A DNA stretch of 5,589 nucleotides, taken from Desulfobacteraceae bacterium (GTDB taxonomy: Bacteria; Desulfobacterota; Desulfobacteria; Desulfobacterales; Desulfosalsimonadaceae). The stretch's first letter is position 1, and every line of letters begins with the position of its first letter. A program made the position numbers and the translations under genes. Positions 551 to 5,589 of the stretch are shown here, one piece after another. The notes under the pieces are model-generated. The model saw only the letters and a program-made list of their open reading frames with translations. It was not told the DNA's origin and ran no database searches. The DNA lies in the NCBI GenBank assembly GCA_003551985.1, contig PUOB01000306.1, positions 1-5,589 of the forward strand. The letters run 5' to 3'.

Positions 551-3500
551 TCACTCGATGACCATATCGATCATATCGAGCATTCGACCATCAAAAAACC
601 CTTCTACGATAGACGCGCTGTTCGGGCATTCGGACGCGCAGCTGCCGCAACCCTGGCACATGGCCGCATTGACCCGGAGTTTTTGCATCTCCATATCGAC
701 GGATCTCGCACCGTAGGGGCATACGTCGATACACCGCTCGCACAGGGCGCACAGGCTGTGCCGGACCCGGGCGGTTACCCGGGCCGTTGACAGCGCATTT
801 TTGGACAGTATCCGCAAAGCCCGCTGCGCGGCGGCTTCCGCGGTTGCCACCGACTCGCTGACGGACCGCGGAGACAAGGCGATGCCGCATGCAAACACCC
901 CCTCCTTCAGGCTGTCAACCGGCCGCCACTTGGGCTCCGCCTCCATAAAGAACCCGTCCGCATCCACCTCGGCGCCGAACGCTTCGGCGAGGTCCCGGGG
1001 CAGTGCGGGTGAAATACCGGTGGCCAGAACCAGAAGGTCGCAGTCGACCCGGACGTTGGCCTCCAGGAGGGGTTCATAGGCGGTGATGCTCAGTTTTGAG
1101 GCGTCGCCGTCATTCACCGTCGCCTCGGGCTTGGCATCCGGGGTGTAGGGAATAAAGACGGCGCCGGCCTTCCTGGCTTCGGTGAACCAGGACTCCATGA
1201 ATCCATAGGCCATAATGTCCCTGTAAAACACGTATATGGCGATGTCCGGGTTTTCCGCCTTCATATGCAAAATGTGTTTCAGCGTGGATGCGCAGCAGAC
1301 GCGGCTGCAGTAGTTTCGGGGCTCCTCCCTGGAATCCACGCACTGGATCATGGCCACCGAATCCAGCGCCTTGAAATCGATCGCATTGTCCGAGACCCGA
1401 TGCGCCAGTTCCTTCTGGGTGACAATGGCGTCGCTCTCACCGTGCGCGTAGGCGCTGGTTTTCGCCTCGTCGCCGCCTGTAGCGATTATTGCGACGCCGT
1501 GCTGTATCGTTTGCGTTGTCGCTTCCGCATCCGGCGCCGCGGCCGATGCCCCTTCTGATTCGGGTTTGGAAGCCACGGTTTCGATGGTTGTAAAAAAATT
1601 CCCCACATCTCCGAAAGAACTCACCACGTTGCTGTTGACGTGAATATCGACTTTGGGATGCTTTTCCAGGCGGTCCCGAACGCCTGCCATGAAGGCATGG
1701 GCATCCCAGCCTTCCACGGTGTTTTTAAGCCAGTTGAGGTTGCCGCCGAGTTGTCCGGCTTTTTCAACGAGCGCTACCTCGTAGCCGTGGTCCGCGATGC
1801 CTAGTGCGGCCGTCATGCCGGCGATGCCGCCGCCGACGACCAGGGCACTGCGCGTAACAGGCGTTTTGGCCTTCGGCAGCGGATCGGCGCCTTTTAACCG
1901 GGATATGCCGGATTTCAGATGTCTCAGCATAGTCTGACGGATAGCGCCGGCATCTTCACCGGAAAGCGTAAATACGGGGGTTCGGATATCTTCGACATCC
2001 ATCAGGGAGGGATCGAGCATCACCTTTCCGCCGAGATTTCTGATCCGCCGGGTGTGGGCATAAGGCACGCAGGCCCCGACGAGGAGCCGGTTGTATCCCC
2101 TGGGCTTCGCCTTTTCGACGAGCATCTCCCATCCTTCGGCCGTGCACACCCGGGGAATGGCAAACACTTCTTCCACCGCGGGATCCGCTTTGAGGTCCGC
2201 TGCGATCCCTTCCATATCAATATTCCCGGCGGGGGTATCCCCGCATTGGCACAAGGCGATTCGTATTGACGGCGCCTGGTGCGAGACGTCAATATATTCG
2301 GGCGCATCGCCCGACATGTCCACCAGCCCCCGGCCTGCGGCGTGAAGCGCCGCTGATGCGCAAAGGGATGCGGAACAGGCGGATATAACGGATTCCGCAA
2401 TATCCCTGGGACCGGCAAAGGACCCCCCTGCGAAAATCCCGTCCCTGTTGGTTCTTGACAATGAAAACGGCTCCGTTTGGGCAAACCCATACCGGTTTAC
2501 GTCAAACCCGGCTGTTTCCGAAAGCGTTTCAAGGCTTTCAGCGGGTTTTTGCCCGCTGGACAGGACCACCATGTCAAAGGGATCTTCAATGCGCCGGCTG
2601 CCTTCACCCGGGTAAGAAATGATCAGCTTGCCGGTTTTTTCATCCTGGTAGACCGTATGCACCCGGCCCCGTTTAAATGTCACGCCGTATTCGTTTTGCG
2701 CCCTGTCCCGGAACCGCTGGTAGCTTTTGCCGAACGTGCGCATGTCCATGTAAAAAATGGTCGCCTCCAGGTCTTCGGGGCCTTGCGCTTTGGCCAGCAT
2801 GGCCTCCTTGACGGCATACATGCAGCATATTCCGGAACAGTAATCCGCCTCGGTCTGCAGGTCCCTGGACCCCACGCACTGAATCCATGCGATCTTTTTA
2901 ACCGGATCGCCATTTGATGGGCGCACCAGTGTCCCGTCGCCGGGATCAGGTCCGGTACCGCTGATCAGGCGCTCAAACTCAAGGCCGGTAACCACGTCCG
3001 GATTTGCCGCGTAGCCAAAGGTATCCTTTCCCGAGGACGGGTCATGACACGCCGTCCCCCCGCAGAAAATCACCGAACCGACCTCTATCTGCTCGCCTTT
3101 TGAGGCCTCCTGAATTTCGTATACCGAAATCACTTTGGAAACCAGGTCCTCGGGATCAAACGGTTTCATCAGATAATCCATGGCGCCTGTTTTCATGGCC
3201 TCGACCGCGGTCTCAACGGTGGCATAGGCGGTCATCATGATCACCGCCATCTCCGGAAAGATCTCCCGGGTCTTTTTAAGGACCTCCACTCCGTCCATGC
3301 CCGGCATCTTGATATCGAGCAGCATCATTTTATAGGACTGGGCTTTTACCGCTTCCAGGGCCTCTTCCCCGGAGCCGGCGGTTTCAACCAGAAATCCTTC
3401 CTCTTCGAGCCATTCCTTGATCGAGTCGCGCACGGTGTATTCATCGTCAACCACCAGCACGCCGAAATCCCGGCGCCCCTCCCTGAAAAGGCGGATCGCG

Positions 3501-4033
3501 CCCGTGGGACAGACATCGATGCAATCCCCGCAGCGCGTGCAGGCGTCGGGATCGATCACATAGGCATTGGGCACCATGTGCGGCACCGGGAGGTATACGG
3601 CCTTTCTCATGGACAACCCGGCGTTGAAGGCGTCCTTGACCTCAACCGGGCAGGCGTTTTCACACTCCCCGCAGCCGATGCAGGTGTCCGGATCCACAAA
3701 ACGGGGCTGCTTCCGCAGCCGGACCAGGAAATTCCCGGACTCCCCTTCGAGCCCAACCACTTCGGTAGACGTGCGGATATCGATATTTTCGTGAAAAAGC
3801 CCTTTTCGAAGGCAGTACTGGGACCCGGCATCCCGCTCGACCAGGGGGAGCATTTTGCACATGCCGCAATGGTTGGTCGGAAACTGGCTGTCCAACTGGC
3901 TTAAAATGCCGCCCAGGTGCGGCGCCTTGTCCACCAGGGTCACCGGGTAGCCGGTTTCAGCCATGTCCAACGCCGCGCGGATGCCGCTGATGCCGCCCCC
4001 GACGACAAGGGCGCGTCCGATCTTGGGTTTCAT
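551..4033 (-). CDS. hdrA: Tandem HdrA-like flavo-iron-sulfur protein with an inserted response-regulator receiver domain
   Basis: This 1160-residue protein contains two HdrA modules. Module 1 has a FAD Rossmann motif (GGGISG, 12-17; D35), cysteines C56, C59 and C74, and an 8-cysteine double ferredoxin segment (C118/121/124/128 and C165/168/171/175). A complete REC domain follows (about 189-311). The FAD fold then resumes with the HdrA cluster motif C386-x12-C399-x3-C403-C404 and a C-terminal FAD motif near 532-556. Module 2 begins with the HdrA N-terminal thiol domain (about 588-700; C595, C597, C630, C655), then a second Rossmann motif (GGGIAG, 734-739; E757), a cluster motif C898-x10-C909-x3-C913-C914, and a terminal 2x[4Fe-4S] ferredoxin (C1095/1098/1101/1105 and C1126/1129/1132/1136). 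HdrA is the FAD subunit of cytoplasmic heterodisulfide-reductase-type complexes and the site of electron bifurcation in known examples; canonical HdrA is roughly 650 aa with one module. AAGGAG lies 9 nt before the start, which sits just ahead of the Rossmann motif. The physiological substrate cannot be read from the sequence. Confidence 0.93.
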   Translation of the reverse strand: MKPKIGRALVVGGGISGIRAALDMAETGYPVTLVDKAPHLGGILSQLDSQFPTNHCGMCKMLPLVERDAGSQYCLRKGLFHENIDIRTSTEVVGLEGESGNFLVRLRKQPRFVDPDTCIGCGECENACPVEVKDAFNAGLSMRKAVYLPVPHMVPNAYVIDPDACTRCGDCIDVCPTGAIRLFREGRRDFGVLVVDDEYTVRDSIKEWLEEEGFLVETAGSGEEALEAVKAQSYKMMLLDIKMPGMDGVEVLKKTREIFPEMAVIMMTAYATVETAVEAMKTGAMDYLMKPFDPEDLVSKVISVYEIQEASKGEQIEVGSVIFCGGTACHDPSSGKDTFGYAANPDVVTGLEFERLISGTGPDPGDGTLVRPSNGDPVKKIAWIQCVGSRDLQTEADYCSGICCMYAVKEAMLAKAQGPEDLEATIFYMDMRTFGKSYQRFRDRAQNEYGVTFKRGRVHTVYQDEKTGKLIISYPGEGSRRIEDPFDMVVLSSGQKPAESLETLSETAGFDVNRYGFAQTEPFSLSRTNRDGIFAGGSFAGPRDIAESVISACSASLCASAALHAAGRGLVDMSGDAPEYIDVSHQAPSIRIALCQCGDTPAGNIDMEGIAADLKADPAVEEVFAIPRVCTAEGWEMLVEKAKPRGYNRLLVGACVPYAHTRRIRNLGGKVMLDPSLMDVEDIRTPVFTLSGEDAGAIRQTMLRHLKSGISRLKGADPLPKAKTPVTRSALVVGGGIAGMTAALGIADHGYEVALVEKAGQLGGNLNWLKNTVEGWDAHAFMAGVRDRLEKHPKVDIHVNSNVVSSFGDVGNFFTTIETVASKPESEGASAAAPDAEATTQTIQHGVAIIATGGDEAKTSAYAHGESDAIVTQKELAHRVSDNAIDFKALDSVAMIQCVDSREEPRNYCSRVCCASTLKHILHMKAENPDIAIYVFYRDIMAYGFMESWFTEARKAGAVFIPYTPDAKPEATVNDGDASKLSITAYEPLLEANVRVDCDLLVLATGISPALPRDLAEAFGAEVDADGFFMEAEPKWRPVDSLKEGVFACGIALSPRSVSESVATAEAAAQRALRILSKNALSTARVTARVRHSLCALCERCIDVCPYGARSVDMEMQKLRVNAAMCQGCGSCASECPNSASIVEGFFDGRMLDMIDMVIE
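3098..3466 (-). other. Receiver (REC) domain inserted within the HdrA-like protein
   Basis: Residues about 190-312 of the HdrA-like protein form a full CheY-like receiver. The acidic pair D196-D197 sits in VLVVDDE, the phosphoacceptor is D240 in LLDIKMPGMDG, the switch threonine is T268 in MMTAY, and the conserved lysine is K290 in MKPF. All residues needed for phosphorylation are present. The domain follows the second ferredoxin cluster (ends GAIRLFREGRRDF) and precedes the resumption of the HdrA fold (GEQIEVGSVIFCGG). The frame is continuous through both joins and no DNA-binding or kinase domain is attached. The likely role, by inference, is conformational control of electron flow, or docking to a sensor kinase. 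Confidence 0.95.
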
Positions 4034-4229: not shown

Positions 4230-5375
4230 CTAATGCGTCACTTCCACCACCTCGGCAAACTCCTCTTCCTTGAAAACCGTCAGCGGGGGGTCATCGTCCA
4301 GGCTTCTGCCCGCTTCATAGTCGAATACCGCCTGAGTCTTTTCCGCAGTCATGGTAAAAAGCGCCACCAGGGGAACGTCGTTGGGGCACGCATTGCTGCA
4401 CTGGCCGCACCCCACGCATGCCGTGGACATGTGGGCCATACGGGTAATATGGTAGAAAACGGTGTCCACGGGCATTTTGATCATACCCTTTCTTTTGGCC
4501 CACCGCAGGTACTGGAAGGGATCATGGTCGAAAACGTCCGTCACAAACACGCATTCACGGCAATAGCATACCGGGCATGCCACGCGGCAGTTATAACAGT
4601 TGATGCACCCCGACAGGTACGCGGCAAGTTTCTCCGGATTGTCGGTTTTTTCGCGGGTGCTCTCGAACATCTCCTTTTTAAAGGCTTCGCGTGACGCCAC
4701 GAGGGCCTCGATGGCCCCTTCCCGTTCAGACGGCGCATCCTGCGGACTCAAACCCAGCTTGTCAAATATCGCGTCGCCCTTGTCGGTTTCCGAGGTAAGC
4801 AAAAACCGGCTGTCGATATCGATGCCGAATATTCCGATTGAAATGTCCGCACCGTGCGGAACCGGATGCGCACAGGACCGGCAAGCCACCGGCAGTTCGA
4901 CGCCGGCGTCGAAGCTTGTCTCTCCGGCAAGAGCAGCCTTGAGAAACCGTTCGGTGGAACCATCGGGGGTCTCTGCGATGAATTGGCTGTAATCCGTATT
5001 CTGAAGTGCGCCCGGGCAGTCGATGCCCACCACGACAATATCATCGACGGATCCCTGCTTAAGCTTGACAAGCTCGATATGGGCCCTGATTTCACAGGGA
5101 CGGAGCACCACCGCAACCGTTCCCCCGGCGGGCCTTTTGGTGAGACGGGAGACCAGTTTGGCGGCATTCATCGGGAATGACGGCGAAAAAGGGTCGATCG
5201 CGTCAAGCTGCTCCGGATCCGTAACCAGGGTCTGCATGACCCGGTCCTGCGATGGCAGCCGCATGGGGGCCATTACGGCGCTGATGTCGCCCGCCTCAAG
5301 CAAGCGCTTGAAAAAAGACGCAAGCGTAGCCGACAGGGTCTGGTTCTCTATATCGTATAAAGCGGTTTTTGCCAT
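4230..5375 (-). CDS. FrhB/FdhB-like flavo-iron-sulfur oxidoreductase subunit
   Basis: The 381-residue protein resembles the beta subunit family of F420-reducing hydrogenase and formate dehydrogenase (FrhB/FdhB). The N-terminal part has the family-style segments VVLRPCEIRA (C94), VGIDCPG (C120) and a C165-x2-C168 pair, followed by a GIFGIDIDSRFLLTSE segment typical of the FrhB/FdhB core. The C-terminal part holds C257-x2-C260-x2-C263-x3-C267, the CPVCYCREC extension with C270, C272 and C275, and a second cluster C320-x2-C323-x2-C326-x3-C330. This C-terminal double-cluster layout is closer to FdhB than to the shorter, single-cluster FrhB. Family members bind FAD and exchange electrons with F420 or ferredoxin; which carrier is used here is unknown. 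GGAGG lies 6 nt before the start. It sits between an mvhD-like gene (41 bp upstream) and hdrA, suggesting it is the electron entry or exit module of the Hdr complex. No signal peptide or membrane segment is seen, so it should be cytoplasmic. Confidence 0.85.
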   Translation of the reverse strand: MAKTALYDIENQTLSATLASFFKRLLEAGDISAVMAPMRLPSQDRVMQTLVTDPEQLDAIDPFSPSFPMNAAKLVSRLTKRPAGGTVAVVLRPCEIRAHIELVKLKQGSVDDIVVVGIDCPGALQNTDYSQFIAETPDGSTERFLKAALAGETSFDAGVELPVACRSCAHPVPHGADISIGIFGIDIDSRFLLTSETDKGDAIFDKLGLSPQDAPSEREGAIEALVASREAFKKEMFESTREKTDNPEKLAAYLSGCINCYNCRVACPVCYCRECVFVTDVFDHDPFQYLRWAKRKGMIKMPVDTVFYHITRMAHMSTACVGCGQCSNACPNDVPLVALFTMTAEKTQAVFDYEAGRSLDDDPPLTVFKEEEFAEVVEVTH

Positions 5376-5416: not shown

Positions 5417-5589
5417 CTACACCACTGCCGCGTTTTTGGCCGCGTTAGGCCCCAACGCCTTGATTTCACCGACCATGTCCCGTATCGTCCGGGCAAACTG
5501 GATGCCGTCGGAGGCCCCGATCCACGTGAGTTTGAGCCGCTGCTCATCAAACCCGTACTGGGGCAGAATGGCTTTGAGCAGCTTCATGC
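5417..5589 (-). CDS. mvhD: MvhD/FlpD-family iron-sulfur subunit, partial (C-terminal end)
   Basis: The frame enters from the right edge and ends with TAG at 5417-5419, showing the last 56 residues. The segment MKLLKAILPQYGFDEQRLKL, then TWIGASDG and FARTIRDMVGEIKALGP, matches the C-terminal end typical of the MvhD (FlpD) family, in which a helix-rich segment is followed by a W-[IV]-x-A-S-[DE]-G motif and ends in an EIKxLGP segment. MvhD is a small [2Fe-2S] subunit that wires HdrA to an electron-donating enzyme such as a hydrogenase or formate dehydrogenase. The iron-sulfur ligands lie outside the window and cannot be checked, and a fusion to another domain upstream (for example HdrA-MvhD) is possible. 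The gene ends 41 bp before the FrhB/FdhB-like gene, so the two are probably cotranscribed. Confidence 0.8.
   Translation of the reverse strand, partial: MKLLKAILPQYGFDEQRLKLTWIGASDGIQFARTIRDMVGEIKALGPNAAKNAAVV

Follow-up and report, generated by a model that had tools for sequence, protein, structure and literature searches.

The window analysed here, i.e. the whole stretch of 5,589 nucleotides from a Desulfobacteraceae bacterium (contig PUOB01000306.1), encodes an HdrA-like electron-transfer flavoprotein in which a complete receiver (REC) domain lies inside the first of two fused flavin modules, in one continuous frame, as a sequence-only reading of this DNA had claimed. This REC-HdrA, hereafter hdrA-REC, is real and conserved and, as far as the open-access literature searched extends, undescribed, its name existing in a single database record (P0154). 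On balance, we lean towards considering it as a two-component-regulated HdrA, where a histidine kinase would act on the aspartate D240 and bifurcation or confurcation of electrons would be set post-translationally. The features of the window are listed below, where counts out of 42 refer to the window plus the 41 related REC-bearing loci.

551..4033, minus strand: hdrA-REC gene, 1160 aa, HdrA-like with two fused flavin modules
3704..4018, minus strand: FAD module 1, first part (residues 6-110)
3485..3703, minus strand: inserted ferredoxin domain of module 1 (residues 111-183), Fer4 matches
3098..3466, minus strand: REC (receiver) domain (residues 190-312 of the HdrA ORF)
3443..3448, minus strand: D196-D197 codons, predicted Mg-binding acidic pair (36/42 and 33/42)
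3314..3316, minus strand: D240 codon, predicted phosphoacceptor Asp (39/42)
3230..3232, minus strand: T268 codon, switch Thr (35/42)
3164..3166, minus strand: K290 codon, conserved Lys (42/42)
2354..3094, minus strand: FAD module 1, second part (residues 314-560), by alignment to HdrA 5odc
785..2278, minus strand: HdrA N-terminal-like domain and FAD module 2 (residues 586-1083)
623..757, minus strand: C-terminal two-cluster ferredoxin (residues 1093-1137), Fer4_10
4230..5375, minus strand: FrhB/FdhB-like iron-sulfur protein, 381 aa, directly upstream of hdrA-REC, PF04432 (E=1.1e-6)
5447..5587, minus strand: mvhD, 3' end, tblastn 89% identity over 47 aa to the product of locus L002
2..433, minus strand: hdrC, 5' part, cut by the window end, TIGR03290 (E=1.9e-19)

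Along the chain, FAD module 1, which holds both the ferredoxin and the REC inserts, is followed by the HdrA N-terminal-like domain, FAD module 2 and the C-terminal ferredoxin, with two thioredoxin-reductase-like modules at about residues 3-567 and 727-1083. The HdrA fold, with its FAD domain and inserted ferredoxin, is present in the window protein; residues 6-183 align with residues 144-311 of HdrA 5odc, and E354 and K409, in the second part of module 1, correspond to E356 and K409 of the same structure. The fold as well as the cluster and FAD ligands are common to hdrA-REC and the methanogen HdrAs (5odc, 8rvy and 8rwn), but the latter have a single flavin module vs. two in hdrA-REC, and the window protein stays below the NCBIfam cut-offs of the methanogen HdrA/HdrA2 models (NF040770, 673 vs. 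1100 bits; NF041778, 523.1 vs. 1400 bits; NF041891, 492.8 vs. 1300 bits). In the alignment, the REC occupies the point at which the chain passes from the inserted ferredoxin domain back into the first FAD fold; two solved HdrAs have 3-6 residues at this position. As reported in the passages opened of a recent classification, type II HdrA from methane-metabolizing archaea comprises two thioredoxin-reductase domains, and a Lys/Glu pair at FAD N5 (K409/E356 in M. thermolithotrophicus), conserved in 75% of type II HdrA, is proposed as the mark of bifurcating HdrA (PMC12054007). Type II HdrA and hdrA-REC share two flavin modules per chain, the K/E pair being found in module 1 of hdrA-REC, a likeness that concerns the domain layout and stands apart from the phylogeny of that study; type II HdrA has been described in archaea, however, and the abstract and passages opened tell of a GltD insertion and of an MvhD fusion but not of a REC (PMC12054007). 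As judged from the conserved residues, the electron apparatus of hdrA-REC is intact, with E354, K409 and each of the eight cysteines of the inserted ferredoxin, corresponding to two 4Fe-4S clusters, kept in 42/42 sequences; each of the eight cysteines of the C-terminal ferredoxin is likewise present in the 38/38 rows with a letter at these positions, the remaining four rows ending early.

REC domains are characterised by an acidic pair, a phosphoacceptor Asp, a switch Thr and a Lys. The window REC has the receiver fold (PF00072, 115.7 bits vs. a curated cut-off of 30.2) and carries all five residues, namely D196, D197, D240, T268 and K290; the loss of phosphorylation residues typical of pseudo-receivers is absent from it, and profile comparison places it nearest to the AtoC and NtrC families. 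All five pocket residues are kept together in 33 of the 42 sequences. Among the best 120 of 7913 protein matches to the window, PF00072 is found with all five residues, each being conserved in 120/120; one of these matches (P0001) is the window's own protein, which leaves 119 others, and no cultured strain with an intact pocket appears among the names shown for the matches listed.

Regarding the spread of this architecture, genome contigs were scanned with six exact peptide patterns, 80 of the 87 matches being kept, which resulted in 79 loci. Homologues with the same insertion point were indeed recovered, as the insert is continuous and in frame in 41 of these 79 related loci, nearly all from separate assemblies (L023 and L035 come from one MAG and are identical). 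Four close family members cut by contig ends (L014, L026, L044 and L047) were left out of the group without REC, leaving 34 of the 79 loci as REC-less relatives, which are distant and provide a rough control only. In addition, a single HdrA-REC, matching the ferredoxin-REC-flavin stretch at E<=1e-40, was recovered from each of 15 of 395 genomes drawn evenly from the phylum, seven candidates being scored per genome. In a tree of 71 proteins computed with the REC columns removed (quick method, LG+G4, 71 rows), a single change separates REC from no REC (SH-aLRT 99); this tree omits the four truncated family members, the REC ORFs cut by contig ends (L030, L037, L038 and L070) as well as L041, the best ORF of which is 850 aa or less. 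Such counts of changes on a tree do not distinguish gain from loss, but the breadth of the REC-less relatives, which include Bathyarchaeota, Bacillota, Chloroflexota and other sulfate reducers, makes gain the simpler interpretation, and the REC was probably acquired once in sulfate-reducing Desulfobacterota. The window being a short contig, an assembly artefact or a gene-fusion error could come to mind; it was rejected in view of the 41 loci with a continuous insert, nearly all in separate assemblies, the single change on the tree and the 15 phylum genomes, and its probability is next to nil.

The sequence-only reading had named a wide loss of the phosphoacceptor residues among homologues as evidence that would speak against it, and such a loss does occur in one Desulfovibrionales-type lineage, where the pocket is gone and the domain is kept. 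The REC is degenerate in 9/42 sequences (L019, L022, L023, L024, L025, L031, L035, L050 and L070), which are assigned by record title to Desulfovibrio, Desulfomicrobium, Desulfovibrionales, Pseudodesulfovibrio or unplaced proteobacteria, and the eight of them present in the tree form one nested clade (support 100). Among the best 120 of 7148 matches to the degenerate L023, including Pseudodesulfovibrio, Maridesulfovibrio, Paucidesulfovibrio gracilis, Desulfocurvibacter africanus and Desulfovibrio inopinatus, none (0/120) has all five residues intact, and 119/120 keep 122-145 residues between the junctions, the remaining one having 66. Both sets of 120 were chosen by likeness to their query, so these results hold for two lineages rather than for every relative.

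Selection on the REC follows the same divide. Pairwise dN/dS was estimated by the Nei-Gojobori method for 11 pairs, one of which (window/L002) gave no value. For intact RECs, dN/dS was 0.000 (L021/L033, with few changes), 0.075 (L003/L005), 0.057 (window/L001), 0.044 (L001/L012) and 0.065 (L039/L077), the REC dS exceeding 1, i.e. saturation, in the last three; for the second flavin segment and in the same pair order, it was 0.502, 0.140, 0.128, 0.107 and 0.122. The REC value is below those of the second flavin segment and of module 2 in 5/5 intact pairs, and below that of the first FAD/ferredoxin segment in 4/5, with the exception of L039/L077 (0.065 vs. 0.058). For degenerate RECs, it reached 0.401, 0.344, 0.384, 0.256 and 0.312, above the three other segments in 5/5 pairs, four of these five pairs having sequences in common. 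The direction of the contrast between intact and degenerate RECs is clear and its size is rough. A REC persisting as an evolutionary relic without function would accord with the degenerate pocket of the Desulfovibrionales-type lineage and with a REC dN/dS of 0.256-0.401 that exceeds every other segment there, but it conflicts with the 0.000-0.075 range of the intact lineage, with the 120/120 listed sites intact and with a tree that needs no reversion to the REC-less state; for the window's lineage, this reading was rejected on the low REC dN/dS and intact sites, and in general it appears highly improbable.

That the sister lineage keeps a dead receiver implies that the REC also has a structural or docking role, for which no phosphate is needed. 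Pushed further, the REC could be first and foremost a scaffold, that is an interaction surface next to the inserted ferredoxin by which a partner protein (ferredoxin, polyferredoxin or another subunit) is recruited or kept away, and phosphorylation, where retained, would tune assembly and not electron flow. Consistent with such a surface are the 122-145-residue domain maintained in nearly all listed pocket-less relatives, the inserted ferredoxin domain acting as a docking site in methanogens according to the passages opened of PMC12350162, and the junctions on either side of the REC, of 17 aa in 41/41 loci and 28 aa in 41/41 loci. Constant junction length was discarded as proof of rigid coupling and gives weak support to docking as well, because 38-76% of same-size stretches are also indel-free in the three alignments. 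Docking alone, however, leaves unexplained why the other lineage retains all the chemistry residues and why kinases lie adjacent, and we regard it as rather unlikely to be the chief role of the REC.

In the REC loci, the usual gene order is GltD-insert hdrA (type III), mvhD, fdhB-like, hdrA-REC, hdrC, hdrB and one or several histidine kinases. Neighbours called in the 41 REC loci comprise a GltD-bearing hdrA in at least 23, mvhD in at least 20, hdrC in at least 16, hdrB in at least 17 and the fdhB-like gene (cluster C1) in at least 35; these are lower bounds because contig ends and antisense ORFs hide genes, the gene calls being longest ORFs and antisense ORFs having masked real neighbours such as mvhD in L001. 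In the window, the mvhD fragment belongs to cluster C4, a member of which, in L036, has PF02662; the hdrC fragment scores 70.1 bits with TIGR03290, below the cut-off of 160, its ORF being incomplete, and a PHROGs scan of the FrhB-like neighbour gave no match.

The window contig ends inside hdrC, before the kinase region, which in the near relatives L001 and L012 harbours a kinase about 1.5 kb beyond hdrA-REC. L001, whose HdrA-REC is 75% identical to that of the window, encodes two kinases downstream (L001:12909-14747 and 15160-16668). The search for adjacent histidine kinases suggested by the sequence-only reading was fruitful: among loci whose flank reaches at least 4.9 kb, a kinase is encoded at most 5 kb downstream in 20/23 intact-REC loci (17 on the same strand), 0/6 degenerate-REC loci and 9/27 loci without REC, and a kinase lies upstream in 0/25, 4/7 and 1/22, respectively, as called with a home-made HATPase profile built from 11 annotated domains rather than from Pfam, by which divergent kinases may be missed. 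Fisher tests on these counts (1.8e-4 and 1.6e-4) treat related loci as independent and overstate the case, because the tree shows a single coincidence of pocket loss with loss of the downstream kinase. The intact loci L004, L011 and L016 lack a kinase in the 5 kb downstream, and L029, L034 and L077 have one on the opposite strand only. Inspection of downstream proteins showed PAS-HisKA-HATPase kinases, some of them with HAMP, as well as REC-kinase hybrids and a single REC. Besides, Usp-REC-Usp proteins are encoded directly after the hdrB-type gene of the hdrA-REC cluster in two loci (L018:13058-14368 and L036:10836-12149, both on the plus strand).

Against a control function of the REC, 9/27 relatives without it also have a downstream kinase, and the kinases may instead serve sigma-54 regulators found in the same loci. 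Among degenerate loci, Pfam domains reveal a divergent PAS-kinase-REC together with a REC-sigma54 activator in L025 (649-4021, minus strand) and a divergent REC-sigma54 activator beside the operon in L023 (2240-3664, minus strand), and home-made profiles reveal similar regulator pairs in L022, L024, L031 and L050. The signal could even flow in reverse, HdrA being the sensor, with its redox state tuning the acceptance or retention by the REC of phosphate from neighbouring kinases, and the enzyme would act as phosphate sink or reporter for operon transcription. Some of these loci also encode PAS/GAF kinases and REC-sigma54 regulators, which would fit, as would the single-domain RECs and REC-kinase hybrids in the operon, which suggest a multi-step relay; transcriptional two-component control of an hdr operon is moreover on record, the response regulator DVU2394 controlling transcription of the adh-hdr operon in D. 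vulgaris, as described in the passages opened of PMC3333781, where atypical receivers without a nearby kinase are also remarked on. As enzyme-attached RECs are generally read as controlling the enzyme and not the opposite in the passages opened of PMC5847659, we deem such a reversal improbable.

Returning to a kinase-controlled HdrA, the protein would be a double (type II-like) HdrA with an NtrC/AtoC-like receiver placed at the hinge that links, in module 1, the flavin fold to the inserted ferredoxin domain. D240 would, in the window's lineage, be phosphorylated by a co-encoded histidine kinase, both the phosphorylation and the partner being predicted, and the ensuing change in the REC would alter electron delivery via the low-potential branch, i.e. 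from the module 1 flavin to the inserted ferredoxin clusters and on to an external carrier. Phosphorylation of D240 might shift the position of the ferredoxin domain, its docking or the cluster-to-cluster transfer, the step affected and the sign of the effect being conjectural, and bifurcation or confurcation by an MvhD-FdhB-like-HdrABC complex would be set after translation. This complex would probably be NAD(P)H-linked, since a GltD-bearing HdrA is encoded upstream in relatives. According to the passages opened of PMC12350162, it is an arm comprising both terminal domains of HdrA (N and C) that undergoes the large movement in methanogen Hdr; electrons are anticipated to leave through the inserted ferredoxin domain, which is also a docking site. 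The arm domains of methanogens fall in the second half of the double-HdrA chain, whereas the REC stands at the base of the module 1 exit domain; with movement placed in the arm, and exit and docking in the inserted ferredoxin (PMC12350162), exit or docking and ferredoxin movement are equally likely objects of control.

Histidine-kinase control of HdrA, as put forward in the sequence-only reading, thus stands in part: the insertion is shared, the site is kept in 120/120 listed matches, REC dN/dS is low and kinases accompany 20/23 intact loci, but the pocket is lost in the Desulfovibrionales-type lineage. A more elaborate scenario, offered tentatively and with more doubt than assent, is that a kinase gates bifurcation, the phosphorylated REC at the base of the exit ferredoxin opening or closing the low-potential branch, and that the sister lineage gave the switch up, keeping the dead receiver as structure, with sigma-54 regulators divergent beside the operon (L023 and L025). 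Some sulfate-reducing bacteria may then switch an energy-saving HdrA-type enzyme directly, since the REC sits in the electron path and related clusters often encode sensor kinases.

The hinge occupied by the REC admits other domains. Type III HdrA is an HdrA with an inserted GltD, as defined in the passages opened of PMC12054007, and alignment ranges and domains put this GltD at the same hinge after the inserted ferredoxin as the REC; the GltD insert is an NAD(P)H-type flavin module, which would carry electrons, whereas the REC insert is a signalling domain. The window protein is not type III, having the REC at the hinge and no Fer4_20 among the best 25 of 26 Pfam families. The neighbouring paralogue of hdrA-REC (L001:2854-6255; cluster C3, 23/41 loci) has a GltD/Fer4_20 module in the same hinge, as do the double HdrAs of L045, L049 and L079. 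Because GltD/Fer4_20 enters the same site in this paralogue and in some double HdrAs, the HdrA hinge looks, from domain comparison, like an insertion socket for control or input domains (REC or GltD). A double HdrA from Planctomycetota (L078:5755-9273, plus strand) matches the window up to a break within the inserted ferredoxin region, which suggests a different kind of insert.

From the passages opened of PMC5847659, a REC attached to a metabolic enzyme belongs to an accepted class of response regulators with enzymatic output, which includes a thioredoxin reductase fusion in metagenomic archaeal samples; the main text of that paper contains neither 'Hdr' nor 'heterodisulfide'. HdrA-REC likewise joins a REC to a metabolic enzyme, but its REC is internal and inside the electron path. 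The database record P0154 (Pseudodesulfovibrio) bears the name 'response regulator receiver modulated heterodisulfide reductase subunit A', assigned by its source, and has the same architecture and family as the window protein, but with the pocket lost (D-R-G-A-K at the five sites). In the passages opened, HdrA of sulfate reducers is discussed without a receiver (PMC10553843, PMC5109826, PMC4287179 and PMC4046663), and receivers and HdrA are mentioned in unrelated places (PMC10547907 and PMC10972369). No paper describing a REC-HdrA fusion was found in open-access titles, abstracts and opened passages.

The control of hdr on record, in the passages opened of PMC3333781, is transcriptional, and HdrA-REC would put control on the bifurcating protein itself, for which no phosphorylation control was found in the open-access literature searched. 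If true, a histidine kinase would here operate a post-translational switch of energy metabolism. With a strongly constrained REC built into the bifurcating subunit and kinases nearby, hdrA-REC constitutes a directly testable case, and a live and a dead receiver in the same hinge in two lineages provide a natural comparison. Aside from hdrA-REC, the locus L039 contains a second receiver-HdrA fusion (16909-18645, plus strand), where two tandem RECs are joined to an HdrA N-terminal domain and the start of the FAD domain, the frame ending early, perhaps by frameshift.
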